From Anadara kagoshimensis (lineage: Eukaryota > Mollusca > Bivalvia > Arcoida > Arcidae): DNA of 64,000 bases. This document shows positions 38,696-64,000 of the stretch, piece by piece. Position numbers and translations under genes: made by a program. Below the pieces are notes generated by a model. The model was not told the DNA's origin and searched no databases. It worked only from the letters and a program-made list of their open reading frames with translations. Location of the stretch: positions 5,994,765-6,058,764 of the forward strand of contig CM037862.1 in the NCBI GenBank assembly GCA_021292105.1. Direction: 5' to 3'. Each line of letters begins with the position of its first letter. Within the stretch, counting starts at the first letter, position 1.

Positions 38696-38700
38696 AGAAA

Positions 38701-39010
38701 CCTCCATTTTATAATAATAAGGAGACTGTGTTTTTGATTGTTCTTCTTCGTCCTGTTGTTTCATTGGCCATGACCTCATATAATCTTGTGCTTTCTCTCC
38801 ATTGTAAAATCTCCATTTTATAATGAGTAGACTGTGTTTTTGATTGTTGTTCTTCAGTCTGTTGTTTCCTTGGCCATGACTTTATATTATCCTGTGCTTT
38901 CTCTCCATCATAAAACCTCCATTTTATAATGAGTAGACTGTGATTGTTGTTCTTCATCCTGTTGTTTCCTTGGCCATGACTTCATATAATCTTGTGCTTT
39001 CTCTCCATCT
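38701..39010. repeat. XPC terminal exon segment present three times in tandem
   Basis: TTGGCCATGAC anchors occur at about 38764, 38870 and 38970 (spacing 106 and 100 bp), each with TCTTGTGCTTTCTCTCCAT-like flanks. The rightmost copy is the coding one, encoding [15 protein letters not shown]. The other two lie after the stop codon and still read as [20 protein letters not shown] in part. Mutated frames show they are not translated from the normal stop. Confidence 0.9.
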
Positions 39011-39033
39011 TTATTAACCTCATCATCATCATT
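38908..39033 (-). CDS. XPC: XPC last exon
   Basis: Acceptor AATTTTAG, phase 0, 41 codons: [20 protein letters not shown], then [10 protein letters not shown], ending HYKMEVL with TGA at 38908-38910. The acidic start and SWP-EE pattern correspond to the end of vertebrate XPC (the centrin-binding region lies near here). Confidence 0.9.
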   Translation of the reverse strand, partial: NDDDEVNKDGEKAQDYMKSWPRKQQDEEQQSQSTHYKMEVL

Positions 39034-42000
39034 CTAAAATTACACAAAGCCTGGGTTATATAGAATTTTAAGTAGTGTATATGTTTACAGCAAACTTTTA
39101 CAGTAACCCTCATTATAATGCCCCTCAATAATGTTGTAACCTCACTTATTGTTCTTCTATGGTTTTTCTTTATAATGCCAAAATCTGACTGAACAAATCG
39201 GTCAAGGCTTACTGTATTTGTCATGTGTTCCCAGTAAAGATCATTAGTTATGCATCCAGATTTTATCAGCTTTAAACAAGAAGTTGCAGCAATTTTTACT
39301 AAGAATATCCTTTAATGACACTGATCAGAAAGGATATTTTCATAAGACATCAAGGAACCTGTGACTGTAACATATATAACGTACATGTACTTCAAGTAAG
39401 TAATTTCCCTTTCCAAATCTTATGTTTGCAAGATATGAAGTGGATTCATTGAGTTTTAAGCACAGTTAAAATTCTTTCACTTATATCAAGGTTTTCAGTT
39501 CAGAGATGGTAGTGTAAACCAGACTGCCTAAAAAGACAAATTACTCTCACTAAGGTCTGTGCTGAATGAAATTTAAACCTAGGGGATGAGAAGCCCTATA
39601 ATCTGTAAGTGACCTTTTAGTCATGTCTACAAGGAGTGGAACTATGAACTCCAATATACAAAGCAAACAGTTCTACAACTATGCCTCTGTGGTGGCAAAT
39701 TAATTATTGGATTCTTAAGTTGTGTTAATAAGCCAGAATATAACCTTGAAGATTTGCATTCTTGTTATGCTAAACTAAGCTATTTTATGCTAAAATTTAA
39801 AAATTGACATAATTTCCAATTAACATGACATAATTTGTATTACCTTAGCATCTAAATCATATCTTCTCTGTAATCTGTCTTTTATAAGTAATCCTTTAAT
39901 TAACAGTTTCCAATTACCATAAACACGCTTTTCTCTTTTCTGCAAAAAATCAGTAATAAAAACATTTAAATTATTATGAAGAAGACCTCTTCATGTAAGC
40001 AAACTTTTTCTGCATAAAAAAAGTCATCATGAACAAAATGATGAAAAAGAGGTGTGAAAAGAGTTCATAAGGTTGTTTCTGATTGACTTGAATGAAAATC
40101 AGACTTATAGATAAATGAAACATTAAATATTATTTAGACAACTTAAATTATTATTTCTCCTGGTTTGTTTCAGGGGGGATATCAAGGATCTGTCACACTT
40201 TTTTTGGGAATGGGGCCAGGGCTCTAGAAATTGGGAAAATATGCAGCACTTTGACCCATTTTGGTAAAATTCAACAAGAGTAAAAAATATTGCTTTCAGA
40301 CTTTTACTAGTCATGAAACATAATTTATTGTAAATTAGAACTCTATTTGTCTATCTTTCATAGCTGTGTGTCTTTGAGGGATGAAGGTTTGGAAAACATA
40401 TGCAAGTTAATACAACATACAAATAAATTGGGAATATTACTGTTATCAATTGGGAAAAAAGCATACTTTATTGCATTAGGAATGAAGCCCAATATCGGCC
40501 CCAAATTTGCTTCAGTGAGAGCCTGAAAATACAGGAATCTATAGCCATATATAGCCGTCTGGCCTTCAATTCTAATATATTTTCTGCTCTAAGTATATGG
40601 GTGCATTTTGAACAAGCTTGGCACAAATGTAAACTATGAAACATGAGATATTTTGTAGCATACCAAATTCAAGTGCAATGGTCAAGATCACAAGGTGAAA
40701 TCTTAGAAACAACAACTCTGTAATGTTGGGAACAGGATATATTGTTTCTATTGAGACTACTATAGTAATGTGTATTCAAAGATAAATGTGTAGTGATACA
40801 TGTACTGATCCAATTATCGCAGTAAATGTCAGCATTTTCCTCTACAAATTTACCAACAATTTACCAAATATGACATGTGAGTGGGTGTGGCTAATGTGTG
40901 TTCAGGTTGAAAGGATAAATAAGATGGAATAACCTGAATGTTTTTTCACCTTTAATCTAATAAATCTATTAGAAATTTCTTAACTTTAATTATAAAGTAT
41001 TGTCAACTTTAATTTTAAAGTACTGTCAACTTTAATTTAAAGTATGTATCTGTGTAGGTATTTGTGCCTTTCACTTGTTTCTAGTGTTTCTTTTACCTCT
41101 GTTTTCGTTGTTTTTGGATTTCCTGGTCTTCATCCCAGGCAGCCAGTAGAATATCTTTATCTTCTTCACAGACAATAAATCCATCAAGCCTGTAATATAA
41201 AATAAATGTACCTGTACTCTCTTTACAACCCTCTATCATCACATTAAATTTTACTTTTTTCAGTCCTAATGTAGAAATTCTGATGTTGATGAATTCACTA
41301 CAGCAGTATCGATGATCAAGTTGTCTGAAGCACACACTTATAGATGACAGAGCCGTTTATTTCCTAGGTTGGAATCTCATTCAGTATAAATCCTAGTGTG
41401 AGAAACTTTGGCAATTTACTTGCTGCAAGTTGATGGTTTACTCAATCATCCTAGGGCAGCTGCTAATGACACTGAGCAAGGGAAATAACTTTCATAAAAA
41501 CTCAATTTCGAATAAGCCTGACCCAATATGGAATATGTAAGGTTACTACATGACCAGCATTGTCAAATAAAATTGACAAAATCTAGTGAAAGGTTGGATT
41601 CTGACATTTAATACAACATAAGCACTATTGTCACATCTCTAACTCGAAATTTCAACAAATTTACATATATGAAAATAATTCTGAATTTTACCTATGAAAG
41701 CATTACCTAAACAATACTTACAGTGGGTGAGAAAATCCACAGTGAGTATCCCAGCCAACCATAGCAGGTACACAATCCATGTTTAACTTCTTTGCAACTT
41801 TATTCAAACCAGGTACTACAAAAACACAGTTATGAATCAATGAAATATCTGTTCAAAAAAATTTTATGTATAACATCCTTCACCTTTTGAAAGTCAATAA
41901 TGTAACACTGTTGTATGCCGGACATGCTGAAAGATTAATTCTATATACATGTACATAAATTAAAATTATTTTTGACTGAAGGCCTACAAGGACAAACACT

Positions 42001-45000
42001 GTCAGTGAATCTGGCTTATAGCCTCTGCATATTTTTGTCATTGGGTATTAAGAATCTCGTATCACCATTAGACAAGTTAGAATTAAGACAGATTTTTCTT
42101 ATTAGGACTAATTCCCGACATATCTGTGCAGAATTTCAAAAAAATTGGCTCATGCTTAGGCAATATAAAATTAATTGATAGATTTTCATATTTTTTTTCA
42201 AAATCTTTATTAAAGAACACAACAAAAAAATTCTGGGGCGGGACGAAAAAAAGTGGGCCGGGCGGGACGAAAATCTAGGAATTAATTTTATATGACCTTA
42301 ACTGAATAAACCTCTAGACAAAATAACGTTGACGGAAATATGGATGTACAAAGTGATTCCAGTATACCAAAGGGGGTTTAATCATTATTGTAAGTTTCTT
42401 AAGAATAAATTTGTCTCTCTACAGATTTTAAGATAAGGTTGACAACTTATTATTGTCATTAGATGTTTATCTGTATACATTTTCAGTTAAAATAATTGAC
42501 AATCTGTCCTATTAACCTAATGCCAAAAGTCAACGCAAGATCTGACAGAGGAACATTGTAACACTCTTGTATCTATGTTTTATCAATAACCATGAACCAA
42601 AAAGTTTGTTCATTATAAAGCTTTACAATCTCATGTCATTCTTTGCTGATCCTAGTGTGCATGTTTCAAGTATGACATGAATTCCTCTGTAATTTGTACA
42701 AGGCAAATAAAAGGAATGTCCAATTTTTTTTACCTTGTAAATGAACTGTTCCAAGTGGTAACATCCAGGGTTTAAATAATTCAAGATTACCATATCCATT
42801 TCTAGGAATTTTACCCTGAAATGAAATTTATGAAATCAACATCAATTAATTCATAACATGATAAATCAGCTTAAATACACCATCAGAATATAAGTTGTAA
42901 ACAGGGTGGTTGTGGCATGTCAATTAGCTGCTGTTCCTTCACCCAAATCAAAATCCACTGAAATAATTATTGTTATGAACAAAAATTCTGTCACAATACA
43001 TAGTCACACATGATAACTGCAAAGCACCAAATTACAAATTACTTACATTAACAGAAGTGAAGATAAATGGCAGAACAGCCATGCTTGTTTCTTTTCCTTT
43101 CCTAGGGAATATGTGTTATATTCAAGATATTGTAATTAGAGAAATAATTTACACTTAATAGAATTTTAATTAAACTTTGCAATAACCCAACTCAACTCCC
43201 AATCCCCCTCTTTTGATAGAGATGGAAATTACTTCATTTCATAATTCATAGGTATGACTAATGATACAGAATAAGCTATCATAATATGAATTATAATCAC
43301 AATATACACATTACAAACATTGCCAAGAAAACATTTAGACATTTCCAAACAAAATATACCATGTGCAAACATAGGATTTTTAGCCGAGTTGAAACAAAGT
43401 TGAGTTTCATCCCTTTTGATCTTTGAAAAATTATTTAAAAAAGCAGCTTTCTGGACTTTTTTCTAAACACTTGCAGATATTGAACTAAAATTTTAGTATC
43501 TGAATCATACACCATATAGAATATGTAATTGCAACATGGCCTGTTGCACCCTGGTGCCTACAGATTTTTCCTGCCGTTTTTCTGTTCTGATTTACTTACA
43601 TCAATGACTGGAGGTGGAATGTATTTCTCTGTCTGCCAAATACCAAAACACTCCAGATCAAGTGCATCAGGATTCTCCTTGGGTTGTTTCTGAAATGATC
43701 AAACACATGTATAGTCAATCCTTGATGCATATACAAATATGTGTATATATACAGTAACAATAATGTTTCATATTCCTGTCAGGATTATCTTCAGTATCAG
43801 GGACATCAATGATGTGGTCTAAAGCACATGCTTACAGAACACAACACCTCTCACTGCCAAGGTAGAATCACATTCAGAACAGATCCTAGTTTCTTCGTTT
43901 GCTTCATTGCTGAAGGTTGGTTTTTGTTGGAAACTTTTTTTTCTCCATCATTCTTGAACTGACCATCTCTATAAAAGTGAAAGAATCTTGGCTAGGGCAT
44001 GCAACTCTATTGCTCCAATCCACTCTTTAATATCAAAGCCATTAATTTTTTTTAATAAGACCCATTCCAGACTTTAATAAATTTTTTTACATTTTCGATC
44101 AAAGCACTCTAGGTTCTATCCTTGTGACAATATATTTAATCATAATTTTTTAATATTTCAGGAGAATATATAGAATAACAAACAAGAGGCCCATGGGCCT
44201 TAACGCTCACCTGTGACCTTTGAACCCATGAGCTTCATTCAAATATCAAAATGATAATTAGGCCAATATTCTAATATACATCCCTATACAAAAAGTTTAT
44301 AGTTTTTGAGATAAATAATCATCTCAGTACTTGTTTGTATCTGTGATCTTGACATTCAAACTCATGCTCTTCATTCATATATCAAAATGACCACTGTGCC
44401 AGTACCAACAATATTCTAATATACATGCCTATACAAAAAGTTAATAGTTTTCAAGATATTTAACCATTTAGGTATTCATTTGCATCTGTGACCTTGACCT
44501 TTGAACCCATGACCTTCATTCATATATCAAAATGATCATTAGGATAATACCTAAATATTCTAATATACATGCCTATACAAAAGGTTTATAGTTTTTGAGA
44601 TAAATAATCATTTCAGAACTTGTTCACATCTGTGACCTTGACCTTTGAACCCATAACCTTCATTCATATATCAAAATGGTTGTAAGGCTAATACCTACAA
44701 TATTCTAATATACATGCATATACAAAAAGTTAACAGTTTTCAAGATAATTAACCATTCAGGTATTCATTAACATCTGTGACCTTGACCTTTGAACCCATG
44801 ACCTTCATTCATATATCAAAATGATCATTAGGATAATAACTAAAATATTCTCATATACATGCCTATACAAAAAGTCTATAGTTTTTGAGATAAATAATCA
44901 TTTCAGTACTTGTTTACATCTGTGACCTTGACCTTTGAACTCATGACCTTTATTCATATATCAAAATGACCATTGGGCCATTACCTACAATATTCTAATA

Positions 45001-47324
45001 TACATGCCTATACAAAAAGTCTATAGCTTTTGAGATAAATAATCATTTCAGTACTTGTTTACATCTGTGACCTTGACCTTTGACCTCATGGCCTTTATTT
45101 ATATATCAAAATGACCATTGGGCCATTACCTACAATATTCTAATATACATGCCTATACAAAAAAGTTTAATTAACTATTTTGGTAAACTTGTACATCTGT
45201 GACCTTGACCTTTGAACCCATGACCTTAATCGATATATCAAAATGATTGTCATGTCAATACCTACAATTAACCAAAAATCCTACATCATTATCACCAGAA
45301 ATGTTTAAAAAATAGCATTTTTTATCAAAGAACAAAAACTGGGACATGACCTTGACCTTTGACCTTGACATCAATCGGAAGAAAATCGCAAGACAAGATC
45401 AACAGTGAAAACTCCATGCAATTATCTTCAGCCATTATGAAGTTATAACAATAAATGTCTCATTTTAAAAATTACATAATTTTACGCAAAAAACGCGTAA
45501 CCTATTTTTTGTCCAATTTTCATGAAAAACACAATTTTAGTGTATCTAGGTATCCTGAATCCAAAAATCTAATCAAAATTTGCCTGCACCTTTTGGTTTC
45601 AGAGAAGAAGATTTTTTTGTCTTTTGGCTATTTATAGTAATTGCAGCCATATTGTTGGGCGTGGTCAAACCCCGAACACAATTTTGAAAGGCTGTTACCC
45701 AGGCATAATAATCACCAAGTTTCATCAAATTTGGCTCAGTAGTTTTGGAGGAGAAGATTAAAATGTAAAGTTTACGCACGACGGACGACGCACGACGGAC
45801 GACGGACGGTGATAGGCTCAGGTGAGCTAAAAAGACTTAAGGATAAAATAAGTTAACTTGTCTTAAATTTGAAAAAAGGACCTAATACATCATTTTATCC
45901 TTCTAATATATGAAAACCATCCTCACTTGAACAACAGAAATTTTACGTTCAACCCTTCAAATTTCAGGAGTTTTGAGAATTACAAATTATATAACAGGCA
46001 GTACTAACCCATTTAGGTCTGGATTTCACCATTTTATATGGCTCTTCTTTAACCTACAAATAACAAAAATGAAGTATATAATTACATTCACCAAATGTAC
46101 CAGGTGATATCACAGACACTGCGTAATGCATGTAAGAACTATTATTTTTATTGACAAGATTCTACATTTTCCCGCACAAAAGTTGTAGATTAATTTAACC
46201 TATCCAGCTACCACCACACAGAGTATATAACTAATCAAACCCCACCTAGAGCTCACCATTAAAAATATCATAACTGAAACAATACCTATTTTTGTTTTCT
46301 GTAAACTGCAGTATTACCTTGTCTAAAATAAGCATGTATTTCTTTAACGACGATAAAAACCTTCAGCTTTAATGGCAAGTAATCACAATGAGGAATTGTA
46401 TTCCGAAATGTTTGTCTAGTGCTGTAAACTTAAAACTTGTATAATATGTAATTAAAGAAAGAATTTTTTAAAATTAAGCAAAAAACCTATAGAAAATATT
46501 CAGATGACTTTTTTTTCTAAAATTTATTTTCTAATTTTGATACTAACTCTTACAGCTCTTCCTTCCTTTAACCAATTTTCTCTGGAATGTAACTAAAAAT
46601 AGAAACAAGAAAATTTTTATAATCATTATATATATTTAACAATGGAAATTTCCTTTTTCAATTCTGTTATGGAATAATAGTGTCAAGATTGTTTCTTTTA
46701 TATTGTGGTGATTCTGGAATAGTATAGGAAACCGGAGTACCTGAGAAAACCTCTGATTTTTGGCAAGTCAACTGGCAAACTTTTTTGGCAAGTCAACTGG
46801 CAAACTTTTTTGGCAAGTCAACTGGCAAACTTTTTTGGCAAGTCAACTGACAAACATGTACATGTATCTGCCAGAGTGGGATACAAACCTAGGCAGTGAG
46901 AGATGCTGTATTGTGTAAATGTGTGCTTTGTACTATTTGGCCATCAGATTCTATTTTGTCTCTACTAGATCATTATCATATATGAAATTTGAATCATAGT
47001 TATTGATCAGAACCCATTGTTTACTGGTAAATAGGTATATTGTTACACCTGTAATAGCAAAGACATTACCTTACCTTAACACCCAACTTTTAACCATAAG
47101 CCTTAAATACATTTTGAATTTTTAAGTTCAACAAGTAAAACTCTATGTACTTTTGTTGCATGAAAAATTAAGAACTGAAGTGATATTCATATCCACTGGA
47201 CATATCTTGTCTGAAACATACTAGCTTTATGTTCTTACCACTAAGCTTATTATTATGAATGCACTGCACACATGGTTATGTAAATGAAATATATTTTACA
47301 CTGCAACTGAAGGGTGAATATGAT

Positions 47325-47370
<46 letters not shown>

Positions 47371-50300
47371 CTTACAACATGCACACATTCCCTGGCATAT
47401 ATTGGTTCACGTTTTATATAACCCAGTGGTATTGCTGTTTCTGGATATATTGCCTCAAATTTCAACAGGTGTCTGGTTAATACATACCTGTTAATAATTA
47501 TATTATAATTATGTGTTATGTTTAAGATTAAATAATTGACAGTAAGGTATGATAAGAATTTGAACAATTCAGGTAACCTAGTAAATGCTGTACTTGAAAA
47601 TGACACTGGGTGATGACTCCACTCATTTCTCATAGTAAAATAGAAACAAATATGCTACACCTGACACAATAATAATTCTTCAACAACAAGGATTCAGACA
47701 AAATTTATTACAACTTTCTCACTGACAAGCTTTGGATAAATTTGTAATTATATGCTAACTAAAGGTAGAATTGTCAGGTGACATGTGTATTTCAACTGCA
47801 CATCCAGTCCATCAAAAAACTGACACAAAAAGTTTGGTAACATTTGTCCATCTACATGTACTAAAAAACTTAAAATACTGGATGAGGACCTTTGCACTTG
47901 GGGTCTTCTATTCTTTACATAAATGAGATATAAATAAATAAAAGCTAATCAAGATAATACTTACAATGGGTGATTTTTGAATGCACTAATACTGGTTGGA
48001 AATGGCCTCTTGATTAAATGAGCTAAAACAATAAAAGTACAACACAATATATTTATTAACAGCCAAAAAACACAAAAAACAACATCTACGGTATCTTCAA
48101 TTGAAATATAGACAAGTATATGTTGACAATATATTGTAAACGTATTTAATTTTGTGTGTATTTATTTTCGAAGTATATGAAATTTAGACAAATTCAAGTA
48201 CCGTAGTTAAATTTTCTTGTTATTTAAATATGTGCTATTACACAATAAGCATAATATAATTTTTGCTCAGTCTAAATTTTCGTGCAAAACAAAATAAGCG
48301 AAAAATTAGTACACCGCAGAAATTAATATGTATACAGTAATTTAAGCTCACAAAAAAAGCATACATGTATAACATTTACTGGTTTTTGGCTTCCATTCAA
48401 ACCACAGTAATAAAGAGTTTTTAGTATACATGTAGCTTACATTTAATACATGTAACTCTAAATTTTTTCACCAAATTCTTTTCACCAAATGAAACTTCAG
48501 CATTATAAAGGGGCTTGCCAATAAACCAAGGGAGACTGAAGAAAAACAAAAAAAGAAACAGTCTTTAAAACTTCATAATACTTTAGGCGATATTTGAGTT
48601 TTTACTGTAAGTTTTGATGGCTTCTCTTTATACCACTCAAGTACTGTAAAGGGGAAAATTTTTGCTTATTTCATGCTAAATTTAAAGAAATTACCGCAAA
48701 CATTTAACCCACGGGAAAATGTTTACCATACAGGTTAATATATCAATATATATAGAATATACACACTTATATTGGTTGCCCGAAAATTACACTCACGTGA
48801 ATTGTTAGATTTCAGAAATCAGGAAATTTTCAAAAACAATCTCTTTTACAGTAATGAAATTAGACAAAGCTAACATAAACTATTTTTTTACCAAAAATTT
48901 CAAATGCTGACATTGATGGTATAGTAAAAATATTTTGAACATGGAAGCTTATGAGGTACATGCGCATTCTAGTTGATAATTAATTGTTTATTCGTTGTGG
49001 TCAATTAATCATTAAGGGAACTTTTACCATTAATATGTTCATCTTCCTTTTGGTCTTGTTCCTTCCTAAACGTAACATAAGGATCTAGAGTTTCTTCCCA
49101 CCATTCCTTGTTTACACGTAACTTTCTTGTGTCTGTCATCCATTTTGAGGCATAGCGTGCTGTTACGTCTTTTATTATTCCTTCTACAAGTAATCAACAA
49201 CATATAATTTGATTAGTTTGGATAATGGAGACCAGACTACCTCTAATTTAGAATGAGATTTTTACATAATCTATAAAAATACATTCCATAGCAGAGTTAT
49301 TTTTGCTACTCTATTCCCAAAAGTTAAACAGAGAATCACCAACATTGTAAAATATCCTGTCAGGTTTCAGTAAGAGACAGACTGAACCACTAGACAAAAA
49401 TACTCATTCAATTTTGAACTTATTTTATCACTGTGCACTTTTTTAAAACCTTATATGAGATTGGTTCAGGAATGAAAGTGGGATGGAGAAACACCAAGAT
49501 TAATATGATTAGTATGGACAATGAGCATCACAATACCTTTAATTCGGAACATAATTTTCAAGTGACTTATAAAAAAGAGTAACATTTGTTAATAACGGCA
49601 TAAGGGTTATTGAACAAAAGCATTGCTGAAAATGCCAAATTTCATTAAACTGAACATTTTACTGACAAACAGCCTGAACCACTAAGTTTGTATTAATCTT
49701 ATGGGCTTTCTGGTGAGGACAGCATTAAGGTTAAGGTAAGGTTATGGGCACAGTGGCGAGGTCCATTAACATTAGTTAATTTCTACTTACCATTATCATA
49801 ACCTAAACATAATGTACTGGCTGTGTAGCTGTGTTCTACTTACCTATCATAACCTAATACATAATGTACTGGTGTGTAGCTGTGTTCTACTTACCATTAT
49901 CATAACCTAATACAAATGTACTGGCTGTGTAGCTGTGTTCTACTTACCATTATCATAACCTAATACATAATGTACTGGTTGTGTAGCTGTGTTCTACTTA
50001 CCATTATCATAACCTACACATAATGTACTGGTTGTGTAGCTGTGTTCTACTTACCATTATCATAACCTAACACATAATGTACTGGTTGTGTAGCTGTGTT
50101 CTACTTACCATTATCATAACCTAACACATAATGTACTGGCTGTGTAGCTGTGTTCTACTTACCATTATCATAACCTAACACATAATGTACTGGCTGTGTA
50201 GCTGTGTTCTACTTACCATTATCATAACCTAACACATAATGTACTGGCTGTGTAGCTGTGTTCTACTTACCATTATCATAACCTAATACATAATGTACTG

Positions 50301-53300
50301 GTGTGTAGCTGTGTTCTACTTACCATTATCATAACCTAACACATAATGTACTGGCTGTGTAGCTGTGTTCTACTTACCATTATCATAACCTAATACATAA
50401 TGTACTGGTTGTGTAGCTGTGTTCTACTTACCATTATCATAACCTAACACATAATGTACTGGCTGTGTAGCGTGTTCTACTTACCATTATCATAACTATA
50501 CATAATGTACTGATGTGTAGCTGTGTTCTACTTACCATTGTCATAACCTAACACATAATGTACTGGCTGTGTAGCTGTGTTCTACTTACCATTATCATAA
50601 CCTAATACATAATGTACTGGCTGTGTAGCTGTGTTCTACTTACCATTATCATAACCTAACACATAATGTACTGGCTGTGTAGCTGTGTTCTACTTACCAT
50701 TATCATAACCTAACATAATGTACTGGTTGTGTAGCTGTGTTCTACTTACCATTATCATAACCTAACACATAATGTACTGGCTGTGTAGCTGTGTTCTACT
50801 TACCATTATCATAACCTAACACATAATGTACTGGTTGTGTAGCCGTGTTCTACTTACCATTATCATAACCTAACACATAATGTACTGGTTGTGTAGCGTG
50901 TTCTACTTACCATTATCATAACCTAACACATAATGTACTGGTTGTGTAGCTGTGTTCTACTTACCATTATCTTAACCTAATACATAATGTACTGGTTGTG
51001 TAGCTGTGTTCTACTTACCATTATCATAACCTAATACATAATGTACTGGTTGTGTAGCTGTGTTCTACTTACCATTGTCATAACCTAACACATAATGTAC
51101 TGGTTGTGTAGCTGTGTTCTACTTACCATTATCATAACCTAACATAATGTACTGGTTGTGTAGCTGTGTTCTACTTACCATTATCATAACCTAACACATA
51201 ATGTACTGGTTGTGTAGCTGTGTTCTACTTACCATTATCATACCTAATACATAATGTACTGGTTGTGTAGCTGTGTTCTACTTACCATTATCATAACCTA
51301 ACACATAATGTACTGGCTGTGTAGCGTGTTCTACTTACCATTATCATAACCTAATACATAATGTACTGGTTGTGTAGCGTGTTCTACTTACCATTATCAT
51401 AACCTAACACATAATGTACTGGCTGTGTAGCGTGTTCTACTTACCATTGTCATAACCTAATACATAATGTACTGGTTGTGTAGCGTGTTCTACTTACCAT
51501 TATCATAACCTAATACATAATGTACTGGTTGTGTAGCTGTCGTATTCTACTTACCATTATCATAACCTAACACATAATGTACTGGCTGTGTAGCCGTGTT
51601 CTACTTACCATTGTCATAACCTAATACATAATGTACTGGCTGTGTAGCTGTGTTCTACTTACCATTATCATAACCTAACACATAATGTACTGGCTGTGTA
51701 GCTGTGTTCTACTTACCATTATCATAACCTAATACATAATGTACTGGCTGTGTAGCTGTGTTCTACTTACCATTATCATAACCTAATACATAATGTACTG
51801 GCTGTGTAGATGTGTTCTACTTACCATTATCATAACCTAACACATAATGTACTGGCTGTGTAGCTATGTTCTACTTACCATTGTCATAACCTAATACATA
51901 ATGTACTGGCTGTGTAGCTGTGTTCTACTTACCATTATCATAACCTAACACATAATGTACTGGCTGTGTAGCTATGTTCTACTTACCATTGTCATAACCT
52001 AACACATAATGTACTGGTTGTGTAGCTATGTTCTACTTACCATTATCATAACCTAACACATAATGTACTGGCTGTGTAGCTGTGTTCTACTTACATTATC
52101 ATAACCTAATACATAATGTACTGGCTGTGTAGCTGTGTTCTACTTACCATTATCATAACCTAATACATAATGTACTGCTGTGTAGCTGTGTTCTACTTAC
52201 CATTATCATAACCTAATACATAATGTACTGGCTGTGTAGCTGTGTTCTACTTACCATTATCATAACCTAACACATAATGTACTGGCTGTGTAGCTGTGTT
52301 CTACTTACCATTATCATAACCTAATACATAATGTACTGGCTGTGTAGCGTGTTCTACTTACCATTATCATAACCTAACACATAATGTACTGGCTGTGTAG
52401 CTGTGTTCTACTTACCATTATCATAACCTAACACATAATGTACTGGCTGTGTAGCGTGTTCTACTTACCATTATCATAACCTAATACATAATGTACTGGT
52501 TGTGTAGCTGTGTTCTACTTACCATTATCATAACCTATACATAATGTACTGGCTGTGTAGCGTGTTCTACTTACCATTATCATAACCTAATACATAATGT
52601 ACTGGTTGTGTAGCTGTGTTCTACTTACCATTATCATAACCTAATACATAATGTCCTGGCTGTGTAGCTGTGTTCTACTTACCATTATCATAACCTAATA
52701 CATAATGTACTGGCTGTGTAGCTGTGTTCTACTTACCATTATCATAACCTAATACATAATGTAGTGGTTGTGTAGCCGTGTTCTACTTACCATTATCATA
52801 ACCTAACACATAATGTACTGGCTGTGTAGCTGTGTTCTACTTACCATTATCATAACCTAACACATAATGTACTGGTTGTGTAGCTGTGTTCTACTTACCA
52901 TTATCATAACCTAATACATAATGTACTGGCTGTGTAGCTGTGTTCTACTTACCATTATCATAACCTAACACATAATGTACTGGCTGTGTAGCTGTGTTCT
53001 ACTTACCATTATCATAACCTAATACATAATGTACTGGCTGTGTAGCTGTGTTCTACTAACCATTATCATAACCTAACACATAATGTACTGGCTGTGTAGC
53101 TGTGTTCTACTTACCATTATCATAACCTAATACATAATGTACTGGTTGTGTAGCTGTGTTCTACTTACCATTATCATAACCTAATACATAATGTACTGGC
53201 TGTGTAGCTGTGTTCTACTTACCATTATCATAACCTAATACATAATGTACTGGCTGTGTAGCTGTGTTCTACTTACCATTATCATAACCTAACACATAAT

Positions 53301-56300
53301 GTACTGGTTGTGTAGCTGTGTTCTACTTACCATTATCATAACCTAATACATAATGTACTGGCTGTGTAGCTGTGTTCTACTTACCATTATCATAACCTAA
53401 CACATAATGTACTGGTTGTGTAGCTGTGTTCTACTTACCATTATCATAACCTAACACATAATGTACTGGTTGTGTAGCTGTGTTCTACTTACCATTATCA
53501 TAACCTAACACATAATGTACTGGCTGTGTAGCTGTGTTCTACTTACCATTATCATAACCTAACACATGTACTGGTTGTGTAGCTGTGTTCTACTTACCAT
53601 TATCATAACCTAATACATAATGTACTGGCTGTGTAGCTGTGTTCTACTTACCATTATCATAACCTAACACATAATGTACTGGTTGTGTAGCTGTGTTCTA
53701 CTTACCATTATCATAACCTAATACATAATGTACTGGCTGTGTAGCTGTGTTCTACTTACCATTATCATAACCTAATACATAATGTACTGGTTGTGTAGCT
53801 GTGTTCTACTTACCGTTATCATAACCTAATACATAATGTACTGGTTGTGTAGCTGTGTTCTACTTACCATTGTCATAACCTAACACATAATGTACTGGCT
53901 GTGTAGCTGTGTTCTACTTACCATTATCATAACCTAACACATAATGTACTGGCTGTGTAGCTGTGTTCTACTTACCATTATCATAACCTAACACATAATG
54001 TACTGGTTGTGTAGCCGTGTTTTACTTACCATTATCATAACCTAACACATAATGTACTGGCTGTGTAGCTGTGTTCTACTTACCATTATCATAACCTAAT
54101 ACATAATGTACTGGTTGTGTAGCTGTGTTCTACTTACCATTGTCATAACCTAACACATAATGTACTGGCTGTGTAGCTGTGTTCTACTTACCATTATCAT
54201 AACCTAAACATAATGTACTGGTTGTGTAGCTGTGTTCTACTTACCATTATCATAACCTAACACATAATGTACTGGTTGTGTAGCTGTGTTCTACTTACCA
54301 TTATCATAACCTAATACATAATGTACTGGCTGTGTAGCTGTGTTCTACTTACCATTATCATAACCTAATACATAATGTACTGGCTGTGTAGCTGTGTTCT
54401 ACTTACCATTATCATAACCTAACACATAATGTACTGGCTGTGTAGCTGTGTTCTACTTACCATTATCATAACCTAATACATAATGTACTGGTTGTGTAGC
54501 TGTGTTCTACTTACCATTATCATAACCTAACACATAATGTACTGGCTGTGTAGCTGTGTTCTACTTACCATTATCATAACCTAACACATAATGTACTGGT
54601 TGTGTAGCTGTGTTCTACTTACCATTATCATAACCTAATACATAATGTACTGGCTGTGTAGCTGTGTTCTACTTACCATTATCATAACCTATACATAATG
54701 TACTGGTTGTGTAGCGTGTTTTACTTACCATTATCATAACCTAACACATAATGTACTGGCTGTGTAGCTGTGTTCTACTTACCATTGTCATAACCTAACA
54801 CATAATGTACTGTTGTGTAGCTGTGTTCTACTTACCATTATCATAACCTAACACATAATGTACTGGTTGTGTAGCTGTGTTCTACTTACCATTATCATAA
54901 CCTAACACATAATGTACTGGTTGTGTAGCTGTGTTCTACTTACCATTATCATAACCTAACACATAATGTACTGGTTGTGTAGCTGTGTTCTACTTACCAT
55001 TATCATAACCTAACACATAATGTACTGGTTGTGTAGCTGTGTTCTACTTACCATCATAACCTAATACATAATGTACTGGCTGTGTAGCTGTGTTCTACTT
55101 ACCATTATCATAACCTAACACATAATGTACTGGTTGTGTAGCCGTTCTACTTACCATTATCATAACCTAACACATAATGTACTGGTTGTGTAGCTGTGTT
55201 CTACTTACCATTATCATAACCTAACACATAATGTACTGGTTGTGTAGCTGTGTTCTACTTACCATTATCATAACCTAACACATAATGTACTGGTTGTGTA
55301 GCTGTGTTCTACTTACCATTATCATAACCTAACACATAATGTACTGGCTGTGTAGCTGTGTTCTACTTACCATTATCATAACCTAACACATAATGTACTG
55401 GCTGTGTAGCTGTGTTCTACTTACCATTATCATAACCTAACACATAATGTACTGGCTGTGTAGCCGTGTTCTACTTACCATTATCATAACCTAACACATA
55501 ATGTACTGGCTGTGTAGCTGTGTTCTACTTACCATTATCATAACCTAACACATAATGTACTGGTTGTGTAGCCGTGTCTACTTACCATTATCATAACCTA
55601 ACACATAATGTACTGGCTGTGTAGCTGTGTTCTACTTACCATTATCATAACCTAACACATAATGTACTGGTTGTGTAGCTGTGTTCTACTTACCATTATC
55701 ATAACCTAACACATAATGTACTGGTTGTGTAGCTGTGTTCTACTTACCATTATCATAACCTAATACATAATGTACTGGCTGTGTAGCTGTGTTCTACTTA
55801 CCATTATCATAACCTAACACATAATGTACTGGTTGTGTAGCTGTGTTCTACTTACCATTATCATAACCTAACACATAATGTACTGGCTGTGTAGCTGTGT
55901 TCTACTTACCATTATCATAACCTAACACATAATGTACTGGTTGTGTAGCTGTGTTCTACTTACCATTATCATAACCTAACACATAATGTACTGGCTGTGT
56001 AGCTGTGTTCTACTTACCATTATCATAACCTAACACATAATGTACTGGTTGTGTAGCTGTGTTCTACTTACCATTATCATAACCTAACACATAATGTACT
56101 GGCTGTGTAGCTGTGTTCTACTTACCATTATCATAACCTAACACATAATGTACTGGTTGTGTAGCTGTGTTCTACTTACCATTATCATAACCTAACACAT
56201 AATGTACTGGCTGTGTAGCTGTGTTCTACTTACCATTATCATAACCTAACACATAATGTACTGGTTGTGTAGCTGTGTTCTACTTACCATTATCATAACC

Positions 56301-59300
56301 TAACACATAATGTACTGGTTGTGTAGCTGTGTTCTACTTACCATTATCATAACCTAACACATAATGTACTGGTTGTGTAGCTGTGTTCTACTTACCATTA
56401 TCATAACCTAATACATAATGTACTGGTTGTGTAGCTGTGTTCTACTTACCATTGTCATAACCTAATACATAATGTACTGGTTGTGTAGCTGTGTTTCTAC
56501 TTACCATTATCATAACCTAATACATAATGTACTGGCTGTGTAGCTGTGTTCTACTTACCATTATCATAACCTAATACATAATGTACTGGTTGTGTAGCCG
56601 TGTTTACTTACCATTATCATAACCTAATACATAATGTACTGGTTGTGTAGCTGTGTTCTACTTACCATTGTCATAACCTAATACATAATGTACTGGTTGT
56701 GTAGCTGTGTTCTACTTACCATTATCATAACCTAACACATAATGTACTGGTTGTGTAGCTGTGTTCTACTTACCATTATCATAACCTAATACATAATGTA
56801 CTGTTGTGTAGCTGTGTTCTACTTACCATTATCATAACCCTAATACTAATGTACTGGTGTGTAGCTGTGTTCTACTTACCATTATCATAACCTAACACAT
56901 AATGTACTGGTTGTGTAGCTGTTCTATTTACATTACCATAACCTAATACATAATGTACTGGCTGTGTAGTGTTCTACTTACCATTGTCATAACCTAACAC
57001 ATAATGTACTGGCTGTGTAGCGTTCTACTTACCATTATCATAACCTAACACTAATGTACTGGCTGTGTAGCCGTGTTCTACTTACCATTGTCATAACCTA
57101 ACACATAATGTACTGGTTGTGTAGCTGTGTTCTACTTACCATTATCATAACCTAATACATAATGTACTGGCTGTGTAGCTGTGTTCTACTTACCATTATC
57201 ATAACCTAAACATAATGTACTGGTTGTGTAGCTGTGTTCTACTTACCATTATCATAACCTAATACATAATGTACTGGTTGTGTAGCTGTGTTCTACTTAC
57301 CATTATCATAACCTAATACATAATGTACTGGTTGTGTAGCTGTGTTCTACTTACCATTATCATAACCTAATACATAATGTACTGGCTGTGTAGCTGTGTT
57401 CTACTTACCATTATCATAACCTAATACATAATGTACTGGCTGTGTAGCTGTGTTCTACTTACCATTATCATAACCTAATACATAATGTACTGGCTGTGTA
57501 GCTGTGTTCTACTTACCATTATCATAACCAATAATACTGGCTGTGTAGCTGTGTTCTACTTACCATTATCATAACCTAACACATAATTACTGGTTGTGTA
57601 GCTGTGTTCTACTTACCATTATCATAACCTAATACATAATGTACTGGTTGTGTAGCTGTGTTCTACTTACCATTATCATAACCTAACACATAATGTACTG
57701 GTTGTGTAGCTGTGTTTCTACTTACCATTATCATAACCTAATACATAATGTACTGGCTGTGTAGCTGTGTTCTACTTACCATTATCATAACCTAATACAT
57801 AATGTACTGGTTGTGTAGCTGTGTTCTACTTACCATTATCATAACCTAACACATAATGTACTGGCTGTGTAGCTGTGTTCTACTTACCATTATCATAACC
57901 TAACACATAATGTACTGGCTGTGTAGCTGTGTTCTACTTACCATTATCATAACCTAACACATAATGTACTGGCTGTGTAGCTGTGTTCTACTTACCATTA
58001 TCATAACCTAACACATAATGTACTGGCTGTGTAGCTGTGTTCTACTTACCATTATCATAACCTAACACATAATGTACTGGTTGTGTAGCTGTGTTCTACT
58101 TACCATTATCATAACCTAACACATAATGTACTGGCTGTGTAGCTGTGTTCTACTTACCATTATCATAACCTAACACATAATGTACTGGCTGTGTAGCTGT
58201 GTTCTACTTACCATTATCATAACCTAATACATAATGTACTGGCTGTGTAGCTGTGTTTACTTACCATTATCATAACCTAATACATAATGTACTGGCTGTG
58301 TAGCTGTGTTCTACTTACCATTATCATAACCTAATACATAATGTACTGGTTGTGTAGCTGTGTTCTACTTACCATTATCATAACCTAATACATAATGTAC
58401 TGGCTGTGTAGCTGTGTTCTACTTACCATTATCATAACCTAATACATAATGTACTGGTTGTGTAGCTGTGTTCTACTTACCATTATCATAACCTAACACA
58501 TAATGTACTGGCTGTGTAGCTGTGTTCTACTTACCATTATCATAACCTAACACATAATGTACTGGTTGTGTAGCTGTGTTCTACTTACCATTATCATAAC
58601 CTAACACATAATGTACTGGTTGTGTAGCCGTGTTTTACTTACCATTATCATAACCTAATACATAATGTACTGGCTGTGTAGCTGTGTTCTACTTACCATT
58701 GTCATAACCTAATACATAATGTACTGGTTGTGTAGCCGTGTTTTACTTACCATTATCATAACCTAACACATAATGTACTGGTTGTGTGCTGTGTTCTACT
58801 TACCATTATCATAACCTAATACATAATGTACTGGTTGTGTAGCTGTGTTCTACTTACCATTATCATAACCTAATACATAATGTACTGGTTGTGTAGCCGT
58901 GTTCTACTTACCATTATCATAACCTAACACATAATGTACTGGTTGTGTAGCTGTGTTCTACTTACCATTATCATAACCTAATACATAATGTACTGGTTGT
59001 GTAGCTGTGTTCTACTTACCATTATCATAACCTAATACATAATGTACTGGTTGTGTAGCCGTGTTCTACTTACCATTATCATAACCTAATACATAATGTA
59101 CTGGCTGTGTAGCTGTGTTCTACTTACCATTATCATAACCTAACACATAATGTACTGGCTGTGTAGCTGTGTTCTACTTACCATTATCATAACCTAACAC
59201 ATAATGTACTGGTTGTGTAGCTGTGTTCTACTTACCATTGTCATAATCTAATACATAATGTACTGGTTGTGTAGCTGTGTTCTACTTACCATTATCATAA

Positions 59301-62300
59301 CCTAACACATAATGTACTGGCTGTGTAGCAGTATTCTACTTACCATTATCATAACCTAATACATAATGTACTGGCTGTGTAGCTGTGTTCTACTTACCAT
59401 TATCATAACCTAACACATAATGTACTGGTTGTGTAGCCGTGTTTTACTTACCATTATCATAACCTAACACATAATGTACTGGTTGTGTAGCCGTGTTCTA
59501 CTTACCATTATCATAACCTAACACATAATGTACTGGCTGTGTAGCTGTGTTCTACTTACCATTATCATAACCTAACACATAATGTACTGGTTGTGTAGCT
59601 GTGTTCTACTTACCATTGTCATAACCTAATACATAATGTACTGGTTGTGTAGCTGTGTTCTACTTACCATTATCATAACCTAACACATAATGTACTGGTT
59701 GTGTAGCTGTGTTCTACTTACCATTATCATAACCTAACACATAATGTACTGGTTGTGTAGCTGTGTTCTACTTACCATTATCATAACCTAATACATAATG
59801 TACTGGTTGTGTAGCCGTGTTCTACTTACCATTATCATAACCTAACACATAATGTACTGGTTGTGTAGCTGTGTTCTACTTACCATTATCATAACCTAAT
59901 ACATAATGTACTGGCTGTGTAGCCGTATTCTACTTACCATTATCATAACCTAATACATAATGTACTGGTTGTGTAGCTGTGTTCTACTTACCATTATCAT
60001 AACCTAACACATAATGTATGGTTGTGTAGCTGTGTTCTACTTACCATTATCATAACCTAACACATAATGTACTGGTTGTGTAGCTGTGTTTCTACTTACC
60101 ATTGTCATAACCTAATACATAATGTACTGGTTGTGTAGCTGTGTTCTACTTACCATTATCATAACCTAACACATAATGTACTGGTTGTGTAGCTGTGTTC
60201 TACTTACCATTATCATAACCTAACACATAATGTACTGGCTGTGTAGCTGTGTTCTACTTACCATTATCATAACCTAATACATAATGTACTGGTTGTGTAG
60301 CTGTGTTCTACTTACCATTATCATAACCTAATACATAATGTACTGGTTGTGTAGCTGTGTTCTACTTACCATTATCATAACCTAACACATAATGTACTGG
60401 TTGTGTAGCTGTGTTCTACTTACCATTATCATAACCTAACACATAATGTACTGGCTGTGTAGCCGTATTCTACTTACCATTATCATAACCTAACACATAA
60501 TGTACTGGCTGTGTAGCCGTATTCTACTTACCATTATCATAACCTAACACATAATGTACTGGCTGTGTAGCTGTGTTCTACTTACCATTATCATAACCTA
60601 ACACATAATGTACTGGTTGTGTAGCTGTGTTCTACTTACCATTATCATAACCTAACACATAATGTACTGGTTGTGTAGCTGTGTTCTACTTACCATTATC
60701 ATAACCTAACACATAATGTACTGGCTGTGTAGCTGTGTTCTACTTACCATTATCATAACCTAATACATAATGTACTGGTTGTGTAGCTGTGTTCTACTTA
60801 CCATTATCATAACCTAACACATAATGTACTGGTTGTGTAGCTGTGTTCTACTTACCATTATCATAACCTAATACATAATGTACTGGTTGTGTAGCCGTGT
60901 TTTACTTACCATTATCATAACCTAACACATAATGTACTGGTTGTGTAGCTGTGTTCTACTTACCATTATCATAACCTAATACATAATGTACTGGTTGTGT
61001 AGCTGTGTTCTACTTACCATTGTCATAACCTAATACATAATGTACTGGCTGTGTAGCTGTGTTCTACTTACCATTATCATAACCTAACACATAATGTACT
61101 GGCTGTGTAGCTGTGTTCTACTTACCATTATCATAACCTAATACATAATGTACTGGCTGTGTAGCCGTGTTCTACTTACCATTGTCATAACCTAATACAT
61201 AATGTACTGGTTGTGTAGCCGTGTTTTACTTACCATTATCATAACCTAACACATAATGTACTGGCTGTGTAGCTGTGTTCTACTTACCATTATCATAACC
61301 TAATACTAATGTACTGGTTGTGTAGCTGTGTTCTACTTACCATTATCATAACCTAATACATAATGTACTGGTTGTGTAGCTGTGTTCTACTTACCATTAT
61401 CATAACCTAATACATAATGTACTGGCTGTGTAGCTGTGTTCTACTTACCATTATCATAACCTAATACATAATGTACTGGTTGTGTAGCTGTGTTCTACTT
61501 ACCATTATCATAACCTAACACATAATGTACTGGCTGTGTAGCTGTGTTCTACTTACCATTATCATAACCTAACACATAATGTACTGGCTGTGTAGCTGTG
61601 TTCTACTTACCATTATCATAACCTAATACATAATGTACTGGTTGTGTAGCCGTGTTCTACTTACCTTGTCATAACCTAATACATAATGTACTGGTTGTGT
61701 AGCTGTGTTACTTACCATTATCATAACCTAATACATAATGTACTGGTTGTGTAGCTGTGTTTTACTTACCATTATCTAACCTAATACATAATGTACTGGT
61801 TGTGTAGCTGTGTTCTACTTACCATTATCATAACCTAACACATAATGTACTGGCTGTGTAGCTGTGTTCTACTTACCATTGTCATAACCTAACATAATGT
61901 ACTGGCTGTGTAGCCGTATTCTACTACCATTATCATAACCTAAACACATAATGTACTGGCTGTGTAGCCGTGTTCTTACCATTGTCATAACCTAATACAT
62001 AATGTACTGGATGTGTAGCTGTGTTCTACTTACCATTATCATAACCTAATACATAATGTACTGGCTGTGTAGCTGTGTTCTACTTACCATTATCATAACC
62101 TAACACATAATGTACTGGTTGTGTAGCTGTGTTCTACTTACCATTATCATAACCTAACACATAATGTACTGGCTGTGTAGCTGTGTTCTACTTACCATTA
62201 TCATAACCTAATACATAATGTACTGGTTGTGTAGCTGTGTTTACTTACCATTATCATAACCTAACACATAATGTACTGGCTGTGTAGCTGTGTTCTACTT

Positions 62301-63331
62301 ACCATTATCATAACCTAACACATAATGTACTGGTTGTGTAGCTGTGTTCTACAATTATCATAACCTAATACATAATGTACTGGCTGTGTAGCTGTGTTCT
62401 ACTTACATTATCATAACCTAATACATAATGTACTGGTTGTGTAGCCGTGTTCTACTTACCATTATCATAACCTAACACATAATGTACTGGTTGTGTAGCT
62501 GTGTTCTACTTACCATTGTCATAACCTAATACATAATGTACTGGTTGTGTAGCTGTGTTCTACTTACCATTATCAAACCTAACACATAATGTACTGGCTG
62601 TGTAGCTGTGTTCTCTATTTCATATGGTTTGTTCATCTGTCCTTTCAAACAGTCAAAACCTTCAGAAAATAAAAACAAAATTTTATCAATCAAATCTAGA
62701 AATCACAAGACTGTAAATAACTTATGTTTAGACTATATATTGTAATCTAAAGAATTGGCTGAAGTATAAATTCAAAATATCACAACAAAAAAGAAAAAAA
62801 AAGGTGATTTACCTCTGGCACAATTGATTCAATTTGGACCTATACACAAGTGTAAAGAAAACCAGTTGCAATAATTTTTGATTTTGGACAGTGAATTTTT
62901 TCTGAATGCATTTTGAGTTTACCTTATTTGCTAAAATATATATGATAAATGGTGAAAGAATCACAAAAATTTACCTTGTTAATTTTAAGACAATACAATA
63001 TACATGTATATCAATTATTGATTTAAATCAAAATTTCAATCTTCATGGTTTGAAGTACAGTAAATTAATTAATATTAATTTTAGCGGTGTACTTTTTTTT
63101 AGTGATTTAAATCCATGTCATATTAAATACAATCATTATGCACAATGGAGATATCTATGAGATTTACATATTGTAAGTCCAAATGAATTTCTCCGAGTTA
63201 TAATTTGCACTAAAAAGTTCATGCTAAAATCGATACATTTACAGTAGATTAACAGTATTTTATAGAAAACTATTACTTACACATCCATTTTCCTTCGGCT
63301 TCCACAAAAACTTCTACCCACTGATCACAAC
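38908..63331 (-). CDS. XPC: XPC (Rad4 family) nucleotide-excision-repair damage sensor, C-terminal 13 exons
   Basis: XPC binds distorted DNA with RAD23/centrin and starts global-genome nucleotide excision repair in the nucleus. Thirteen exons in correct order and matching phases encode the second half of the transglutaminase-like domain ([17 protein letters not shown]), then BHD1 ([32 protein letters not shown]), BHD2 ([35 protein letters not shown]) and BHD3 ([57 protein letters not shown]). The basic tail is [20 protein letters not shown]. The N-terminal exons lie beyond the right edge. Exons: 63331-63281, 62659-62568, 49183-49028, 48022-47965, 47487-47376, 46592-46554, 46053-46009, 43689-43600, 42815-42734, 41815-41722, 41189-41097, 39934-39844, 39033-38908. 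One intron is occupied by a 12.8-kb array made from the exon before it. Confidence 0.95.
39034..39843 (-). other. XPC intron
   Basis: No repeats or RNA genes recognised. Confidence 0.6.
39844..39934 (-). CDS. XPC: XPC exon, basic C-terminal region
   Basis: 91 nt, phase 2 to 0. Encodes [20 protein letters not shown] and [10 protein letters not shown], matching the conserved [20 protein letters not shown] of vertebrate XPC. The acceptor in frame is AAAAG at 39936-39935, five bases past a stronger-looking TTGCAG that would shift frame. Confidence 0.9.
39935..41096 (-). other. XPC intron
   Basis: No recognisable element. A short repeat of GTCAACTTTAATTTAAAG-type sequence occurs near 41000-41040. 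Confidence 0.5.
41097..41189 (-). CDS. XPC: XPC exon, end of BHD3
   Basis: 93 nt. [20 protein letters not shown] followed by [11 protein letters not shown]. The DGYIVCEE motif is a hallmark of XPC/Rad4. Confidence 0.95.
41340..41480 (+). mobile_element. tRNA-type SINE fragment in XPC intron
   Basis: CCTAGGTTGGAATCTCATTC resembles a box B region and is followed by ATCCTAGTGTGAGAAACTTT and GCTGCAAGTTGATGGTTTAC. It shares blocks with the copies at 43790-44015 and 46690-46940. Confidence 0.55.
41722..41815 (-). CDS. XPC: XPC exon, BHD3
   Basis: 94 nt, phase 1 to 2: [31 protein letters not shown]. Aligns with the LHRVARKLDIDC-QA-TGF region. Confidence 0.95.
41816..42733 (-). other. XPC intron
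   Basis: Mostly AT-rich. A GC-rich patch (GGGGCGGGACG, GGGCCGGGCGGGACG) occurs at about 42232-42270. Its origin is unknown. Confidence 0.5.
42734..42815 (-). CDS. XPC: XPC exon, BHD2/BHD3 junction
   Basis: 82 nt, phase 0 to 1: [27 protein letters not shown]. Matches the GKVPRNEFGNVYLF-PSMMP-G motif. Confidence 0.95.
42816..43599 (-). other. XPC intron
   Basis: No element recognised. Confidence 0.5.
43600..43689 (-). CDS. XPC: XPC exon, BHD2
   Basis: 90 nt, phase 0: [30 protein letters not shown]. Matches the LFGYWQTEEYQPP motif. Confidence 0.95.
43790..44015 (+). mobile_element. tRNA-type SINE in XPC intron, related to the 63-bp array unit
   Basis: The head-like part runs GATGTGGTCTAAAGCACATG to CCAAGGTAGAATCACATTCA. 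The body has TTGCTGAAGGTTGG, and the 3' part reads GTGAAAGAATCTTGGCTAGG and GCATGCAAC. That last 24-bp segment differs at only two positions from the 63-bp minisatellite unit at 1-8568. Confidence 0.65.
44182..45833. mobile_element. Dispersed element with short inverted ends and internal tandem repeats
   Basis: Starts ACAAGAGGCCCATGGGCCTT and GCTCACCTG, and ends GGACGACGGACGGTGATAGG, CTCAGGTGAGCTAAAA, so CTCACCTG/CAGGTGAG forms short inverted ends. The interior holds about eight diverged units of about 145 bp (44205-45250), each with TGTGACCTTGACCTTTGAAC and ATATATCAAAATGA. A unique part follows with TTTCATCAAATTTGGCTCAG and the GACGGACGAC run. No coding capacity. I recall similar repeats as very common in molluscs. 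The class is not assigned. Confidence 0.7.
46009..46053 (-). CDS. XPC: XPC exon, start of BHD2
   Basis: 45 nt, phase 0: [15 protein letters not shown]. Matches the PYKMVK motif. The following linker is shorter than in vertebrates. Confidence 0.95.
46383..46423 (+). ncRNA. Hammerhead-like remnant in XPC intron
   Basis: ATGAG, a 5-bp stem II (GGAAT/ATTCC), an intact CGAAA box and GTC before TAGTGCT. The 5' stem I strand is lost. It belongs to the same family as the motifs at 23052-30020. Confidence 0.6.
46554..46592 (-). CDS. XPC: XPC exon, BHD1 end
   Basis: 39 nt, phase 0: [13 protein letters not shown], equivalent to LHSRDTWLKKAR. Confidence 0.95.
46690..46940 (-). mobile_element. tRNA-type SINE with internal 25-bp tandem repeat
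   Basis: On the minus strand: a head with CTCTCACTGCCTAGGTTTGT and ATCCCACTCTGGC (box B-like), then GCCAGTTGACTTGCC four times (25-bp period, 46762-46860), then GGTTTTCTCAGGTACTCCGG and TTTCCTA. Confidence 0.75.
47324..47366. repeat. (GA)n microsatellite abutting an XPC donor
   Basis: A pure GA run whose minus-strand copy (CT)n begins about 9 bp after the GTAAGTAAAT donor of the BHD1 exon. Confidence 0.95.
47376..47487 (-). CDS. XPC: XPC exon, BHD1
   Basis: 112 nt, phase 2 to 0: [37 protein letters not shown]. Nearly identical to the vertebrate [14 protein letters not shown] motif. Confidence 0.97.
47965..48022 (-). CDS. XPC: XPC exon preceding BHD1
   Basis: 58 nt, phase 1 to 2: [20 protein letters not shown]. 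Matches the P-PT-IG-YKNHPL motif. Confidence 0.95.
48023..49027 (-). other. XPC intron
   Basis: No element recognised. Confidence 0.5.
49028..49183 (-). CDS. XPC: XPC exon after the 54-bp array
   Basis: 156 nt, phase 1 to 1: [36 protein letters not shown]. Matches [20 protein letters not shown]. The acceptor is CTTGTAG. Its first two bases (AA) complete a codon begun by the G before each array donor. Confidence 0.95.
49184..49781 (-). other. XPC intron, array-free 3' part
   Basis: Unique-looking sequence between the last array unit and the acceptor of the next XPC exon. Confidence 0.6.
49782..62613 (-). repeat. 54-bp minisatellite made of an XPC exon end plus its 5' splice donor, about 237 units
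   Basis: On the minus strand each unit reads AACACAGCTACACAGCCAGT, ACATTATGTGTTAGGTTATG, ATAATG and GTAAGTAG. The first 46 bases translate as [15 protein letters not shown], which is XPC sequence (vertebrate YATKPMTYVVGIDSDG). The rest is a near-consensus donor. The right edge (62613) continues into the unique XPC exon ([13 protein letters not shown]) and the left edge (49782) continues from a donor into unique intron (GTAAGTAGAAATTAAC). The array is thus a tandem duplication of the exon/intron boundary. Length 12.8 kb divided by 54 gives about 237 copies. Common variants are at five or so positions; single-base indels are scattered. The period of 18 codons holds frame, but each unit has TAG (or TAA) right after the donor. 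Confidence 0.97.
62568..62659 (-). CDS. XPC: XPC exon, transglutaminase-like domain, from which the array arose
   Basis: Acceptor TTTTCTGAAG, phase 1 in. Encodes [20 protein letters not shown] and QPVHYVLG, then the first array donor at 62567. The consensus unit would give a 93-nt exon in phase 1. Here the first unit lacks one base (GGTTTGATAATG in place of GGTTATGATAATG), giving 92 nt and a frameshift into the next exon. Confidence 0.85.
62660..63280 (-). other. XPC intron
   Basis: No element recognised. Confidence 0.5.
63281..63331 (-). CDS. XPC: XPC exon, transglutaminase-like domain
   Basis: 51 nt, phase 1 to 1: [17 protein letters not shown]. Matches NHWVEVFLEEESKWVCVD. Confidence 0.95.
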
Positions 63332-64000
63332 CTTATAAAAAGATGAACATAATTTAAATTTGAATTCAATACATAGAATGAAAATACAAAGAGAATCACC
63401 ATTCTCATACTAAGCTGATAACATGACAAGGCCTGTCAGATGAAAATTATAGCTCATCTGTACATCCAGTCAAGCAAAAACCTTACACCAAACAATTTAT
63501 CATTGAAATGTGGACACTGATGTGAATGCCTGTCTTATGATACAAGCCCTGTACTTTGTGAAAGCAAGAATGTGTGTCATTTAAATTTTTACTTATTTAC
63601 ATAGTATATATCAATAAGTTTGGTTTTGTAATAGGATAGAATAGAGTTAAAAAGTTTTTATGTGCAGTCTTGGACAAAACAAAAATCATAAATATTCATT
63701 AGGATCAAAATAAAGGACAAAGTGAAGTTATAACTTTGCTCTGTTTCAAATAATGTCACAAGTATTTGCATATATGAAGGTGAACTTCAACTTGCTATGT
63801 AGCGGAGGTTCTGATCTATCTAACTACAATGGAATATAACTAGATAGCTGAAATGTGTACAGTAAAATCTTGTTTCAGTTCCCCTTGATAACTTTGCCAC
63901 CTCACCCATTGCAACACTATGTTGAAGTCTCTAAATCCATTATGTTTTTTTACTTTTCTTTACAAACCTTTCTATGTTTAATGCTAAACCCCCTTTTTCT
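63332..64000 (-). other. XPC intron running off the window
   Basis: No further XPC exon found. The N-terminal half must lie to the right of the window. Confidence 0.5.

Follow-up and report, generated by a model that had tools for sequence, protein, structure and literature searches.

How does a conserved DNA-repair gene make its message when one of its exons is followed, over 12.8 kb, by some 230 near-equal splice donors and the use of any but one of these should destroy that message? This natural extreme of splice-site choice lies in the window, by which we mean the whole 64,000-nucleotide stretch of Anadara kagoshimensis DNA analyzed here (part of contig C6 in an assembly of 1.115 Gb and 36 contigs), and the gene comes with a near-identical, array-free copy that can serve as a control.

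The array is real and far beyond chance. Tandem Repeats Finder (TRF) places it at 49781-62614 (period 54, 239.1 copies, 95% matches), and wraparound alignment on the minus strand covers it with 239 units plus 2 bases, for a total of 12.8 kb; an earlier sequence-only reading, which had counted about 237 units at 49782..62613, was therefore right to within 1%. That reading spoke of every unit as 54 bp long; the period is indeed 54, but the statement is slightly too strong, because only 184 of the 239 aligned units have exactly this length and the others measure 47-56 bp. Read on the minus strand, the unit is AACACAGCTACACA[G/A]CCAGTACATTATGT[G/A]TTAGGTTATGATAATG^GTAAGTAG, in which the last 46 nt of an XPC exon (15 codons plus 1 nt) are followed by 8 nt of intron (GTAAGTAG), so that each unit spans an exon/donor boundary as had been proposed. 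The motif ATGGTAAGTA is present in 228 of the 239 units and the GTAAGT donor in 234, and 217 units terminate in ATGGTAAGTAG in the wraparound alignment. At its right edge the array adjoins the unique start of the exon (62613-62659, minus strand, from which the reading passes into unit 1), and at its left edge it gives way to unique intron sequence; both edges are as previously described, and both are consistent with growth by tandem duplication of a stretch that includes the splice site. Counting an exact 32-base junction motif gave 163 occurrences, all on one strand, for the whole assembly and 163 for the window as well, indicating that the array exists at one place only. A DNA search of the assembly (with very common words skipped) matched only the second gene copy described below, no clear higher-order units were found within the array, and no structured RNA was found within 49000-64000 at gathering thresholds.

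Homology identifies the gene firmly as XPC. A tblastn search with a human XPC sequence as query gave colinear best matches on the minus strand that extend through the window and past it (along with weaker chance matches), and one exon matches human XPC in PDB with an E value of 2e-10. PF03835 and PF10405 are matched in both gene copies and PF10403 (BHD_1) in the array-bearing one, which we call copy A, so that the transglutaminase-like and beta-hairpin domains of XPC/Rad4 lie in colinear exons; PDB, Pfam and tblastn thus all agree with the original assignment. The two exons flanking the array, read from copy B, align to human XPC 544-622 without a gap across the junction (E 6e-19) and match Pfam Rad4 (E 2e-18), which puts the exon end where the sequence-only reading had put it. 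We also considered, and rejected, a satellite merely resembling XPC: the exon, its reading phase and the next exon all suit XPC.

All exons are on the minus strand. The array exon, which matches human XPC from residue 544, occupies 62568..62659 when read as far as its first donor, which makes it 92 nt long in the assembled copy A and 93 nt in copy B; upstream of it is the exon at 63281..63331, located by tblastn and by comparison with copy B, and downstream is the exon at 49028..49183, which has the acceptor TTGTAG and, with 20-nt flanks, is 97% identical to copy B. The exon at 47376..47487 carries Rad4 beta-hairpin domain 1 (PF10403), and the C-terminal coding block lies at 38917..39033, its end being the end of the comparison and maybe not the true 3' end. 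A 106-bp tandem repeat at 38698-39009 (3 copies) triples part of this last coding block, with frame shifts between the repeat copies; in copy B one copy is clear there, and of a second, diverged one only the beginning is present. To the right of the window, at C6:6066510-6066617, copy A has a GC donor (GCAAGT) in XPC where copy B has GT.

Which donors could yield XPC protein? The roughly 230 near-identical donors presumably resemble the U1 consensus. Each of the 184 units of exactly 54 bp closes with an in-frame stop in the XPC frame (TAG in the consensus unit, with TAA as a common variant), so the statement that read-through past the first donor meets a TAG holds for the consensus unit. Unit 1 itself (62560..62612, minus strand) lacks one base in its exon part relative to both copy B and the array consensus; the product of the first donor is consequently out of frame as assembled, and none of the 229 ATGGTAAGTA donors in the stretch, the first included, leads into the next exon with the frame open. 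The earlier argument that correct XPC depends on the first donor is thus a prediction: later donors of consensus units keep a stop, but the first donor as assembled is not open either. The exon at 41097..41189 (minus strand) also lacks one base that copy B has, and with both deletions the assembled copy A cannot encode full XPC.

The picture of a single XPC gene was incomplete: at C6:8.886-8.909 Mb, 2.84 Mb from the first gene and colinear with it, the same contig carries a second, array-free XPC (copy B). There the counterpart of the array exon ends at the same splice position in a single donor (GTAAGTAA). Across 17 hand-set exon blocks of copy B, GT follows all 17 and AG precedes 16 (the start of block e_298 was left unset, and e_885, the final block, was closed at a poor GTTTTATG that may not mark its true end), and the copy appears intact over the blocks compared. 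The copy B intron behind the counterpart of the array exon holds a transposon-like element of 145-bp repeats, which is also found at window 44181-45800.

Comparison of the two copies over these 17 blocks gives 37 synonymous and 11 nonsynonymous differences, 8 of the latter in one lysine-rich exon. The crude dN/dS is 0.073 (no multiple-hit correction) at a synonymous divergence of about 9.5%, whereas neutrality of copy A since the split would predict approximately 75 nonsynonymous changes (1580 sites x 0.0953/2); these counts rule out an old pseudogene. A recently broken gene is a different matter: the frameshifts would be real, copy B would make the protein and the array would go unopposed by selection. 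The deletions in two exons of copy A, which are the only frame breaks in the 17 blocks, the absence of any open frame from the 229 donors as assembled and the intact appearance of copy B over the blocks compared are what this explanation predicts, but we think it rather unlikely, because the low dN/dS permits only a short time without selection and because the deletion in unit 1 looks like an error of the consensus.

This last point follows from where the deletions fall. The array as a whole has 84 bases deleted and 8 inserted; units 1-18, 19-93, 94-109, 110-187 and 188-239 account for 17, 4, 22, 14 and 27 of the deleted bases, respectively, and for 1, 2, 3, 6 and 8 rare substitutions. The unit 1 deletion therefore sits in a stretch that is rich in deletions and poor in substitutions (17 deleted bases and a single rare substitution in 18 units, while the 75 units that follow have 4 deleted bases), on which ground we suspect consensus error there, and the deletion clusters of the array in general are probably local errors of this kind. 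Unique sequence of the two copies differs by 1474 substitutions and 75 1-bp gaps (about 20:1), and the neighboring 63-bp array (8.6 kb) has 10 bases deleted and 36 inserted, all of the insertions being one common variant in a single column. Decay at the array edges is an unlikely source of the deletions because it should also add substitutions, although in unique sequence 1-bp gaps are slightly commoner in copy A than in copy B (42 versus 33, or 13 versus 7 away from homopolymers). Consensus error explains the break at 41097-41189 less well, this being unique sequence; the surrounding block has six one-base gaps in copy A and one in copy B.

On balance we lean toward the view that the array is a tolerated, junction-spanning minisatellite in an XPC gene that works or worked until recently, and that selection sees only the exon-proximal unit; the out-of-frame first donor and the deletion in a second exon, as assembled, count against this reading. 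The array would have begun with a tandem duplication of a 54-bp stretch over the 5' splice site, possibly seeded by a 4-bp match, AGAA, which occurs at both ends of the unit (ATAG-AGAA-CACAG in the exon, GTAAGT-AGAA-ATTAAC in the intron); the copy B intron is without AGAA (GTAAGTAAATACC). Growth to 239 units could then have proceeded through unequal exchange or slippage. The pre-mRNA would present about 230 near-identical donors in series, among which XPC protein would require the exon-proximal one, because each later donor retains the in-frame TAG or TAA of the preceding unit (a frame seen in the consensus unit), and messages spliced from later donors should undergo nonsense-mediated decay. 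Exon definition would likely let the first donor win, because it gives an exon of 93 nt and the later donors give exons of at least 147 nt. Coding selection would then reach only the unit in first place, and the array would otherwise be tolerated, not useful. Should copy A indeed make XPC, the locus tests whether exon definition alone can select one donor among hundreds.

The variants within the array bear on this reading. We found 21 substitution variants, six of which occur in at least four units (columns 2, 5, 14, 29, 41 and 53, in 5 to 121 units), and all six are third-position synonymous transitions in the XPC frame, the one in column 53 turning TAG into TAA; among the other 15, rarer variants, three are synonymous. 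The contrast between common and rare variants has a Fisher p of 0.0015 when common means at least four units (0.03 for at least three and 0.09 for at least two), and six of six synonymous would be expected with a probability of 0.0019 if transitions were random, figures to be read with the fact that the test was devised post hoc, after the variants had been seen, and rests on six variants. As a control, the eight common variants of the 63-bp array are spread over all three phases. If units turn over through the first place, only variants harmless to XPC would become common, and we tentatively suggest that the array keeps a molecular record of the coding selection on one exposed unit, with units rotating through the translated place; the silent bias, if it holds, would mean that a whole satellite can be shaped through selection on one of its units. 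Linkage counts against the preferred reading: inside units the four major sites of variation show almost none (|r| at most 0.12), and they are nearly uncorrelated between neighboring units (|r| at most 0.11 at lag 1, with one site reaching 0.23 at lag 2), which indicates that exchange is fine-grained or that the sites recur, and is not what simple budding from one end would predict.

The sequence-only reading knew of no described minisatellite of this kind; that claim falls, because a 31-bp variable number tandem repeat (VNTR) of the human CBS gene has the same anatomy. It is described as c.1444_1467+7(16_21), that is, 24 exon nt plus 7 intron nt in 16-21 copies, with substitutions between units (PMC2630376), and a second source puts it at exon 13-intron 13 (PMC1395315). 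The two loci share an exon end and donor repeated head to tail in a conserved gene, with units that differ by substitutions. The XPC unit, too, consists of an exon end, the donor and the first intron bases (46 + 8 nt), and the XPC array, too, stands between unique exon and unique intron; in this anatomy it is a junction-spanning splice-donor VNTR like that of CBS, and its unit number is more than tenfold higher. The two differ in size (16-21 x 31 bp, or about 0.5-0.65 kb, in CBS versus 239 x 54 bp, or 12.8 kb, in XPC), and XPC comes with a near-identical array-free copy in the same assembly.

Other systems resemble the XPC array less closely. The CBS variant 844ins68 likewise duplicates an intron/exon junction and creates competing splice sites, but with a single extra copy, and hence two sites, at the intron 7/exon 8 junction (PMC2630376). 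Intron gain by tandem duplication in Drosophila also multiplies splice signals, but there a new intron arises (PMC2891723), whereas in XPC the intron is old and the donor alone is multiplied; we rejected such intron gain here, as the array-free copy B has an intron at the same place. The ABCA7 VNTR is, by its title, an intronic minisatellite affecting splicing, but the title does not say that it spans a donor, as the XPC array does (PMC5954066). Our literature search, whose scope excluded most subscription papers, returned no XPC array for a bivalve or any other animal.

The CBS parallel also raises the idea that the array is a regulator, in which decoy donors divert splicing into stop-containing mRNA and array length sets the level of XPC. 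CBS activity is reported to be lower with more repeats (PMC5188458), and ATGGTAAGTA is kept in 228 of the 239 XPC units; near-identity of units is nevertheless expected in any homogenized array, and copy B lacks the element, which is hence not common to both copies. We regard a regulatory role as improbable. 

Copies A and B belong to a colinear duplicate block (C6 5.66-7.60 and 8.50-10.34 Mb) of at least 1.9 Mb, with 88-98% identity in probes at six places. At these six informative places the partners (5.66 and 8.50, 5.70 and 8.55, 6.01 and 8.86, 6.03-6.09 and 8.88-8.93, 6.46 and 9.30, and 7.60 and 10.33 Mb) keep a nearly constant offset of 2.73-2.85 Mb; a probe at 7.30 Mb was uninformative, being a high-copy repeat. 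Substitutions between copies A and B amount to 3.5-12.5% in 14 blocks (6.5% overall). Copy B may be the other haplotype retained in the assembly or a segmental duplicate, and the two genes, with 239 units versus 1, may be paralogues rather than alleles. If they are alleles, a single animal has one donor for this exon on one haplotype and 239 on the other, a ready-made experiment on how the spliceosome chooses among hundreds of equals. An assembly artefact, in which a real array has the wrong length or placing or the two copies are haplotypes of a single locus that were wrongly joined, is very improbable: deletion-rich patches at both array ends and in the middle, together with a colinear block at a nearly constant offset such as retained haplotigs would give, point that way, but the unique sequences at the two edges of the array are the exon and the intron to be expected there, the substitution level and the synonymous divergence are high for alleles, and same-contig pairs elsewhere differ in depth.

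Those pairs hinted at uniform haplotig duplication, which their unequal identities oppose. With PF00562 we found three eukaryote-like RNA-polymerase second-subunit loci (C1, C9 and C14), besides a fourth, bacterial-looking hit on C22; two of the three are doubled on their own contig, the C9 pair (38.81/38.99 Mb) at 82-89% identity in pieces longer than 400 bp and the C14 pair (18.45/20.48 Mb) at 71-87%; the Rad4-like genes of C15 are also paired on one contig, at 94-98%. Identities ranging from 71% to 98% indicate that the pairs are not of one age and do not fit a single common cause.

Several minor observations concern other sequences in the assembly. A bacterial-looking rpoB match at C22:11302-12450 (420 bits) has one internal TGA, perhaps read as a residue, and its contig is probably a symbiont or contaminant. 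The 2-kb repeat at C6:7300000-7302000 has nine other full-length copies at 98-100% identity and is probably, on that pattern, a young mobile element. On the 5' side of XPC copy A is a 26-bp array of 78 copies (local positions 2855-4911, and also 1-291), and tiled matches suggest that a 51-bp array near it is common to copies A and B. The 63-bp minisatellite occupies window 1-8568 with 136 copies and is open in 21-codon periods (up to 420 aa on the minus strand and 226 aa on the plus strand); it was not reported in the adjoining stretch, which overlaps the start of the window by its final 36 bases. A 48-bp array lies at window 10557-11247 (14 copies), and its consensus unit contains the donor-like motif AGAGCAAGGTAAAAC.
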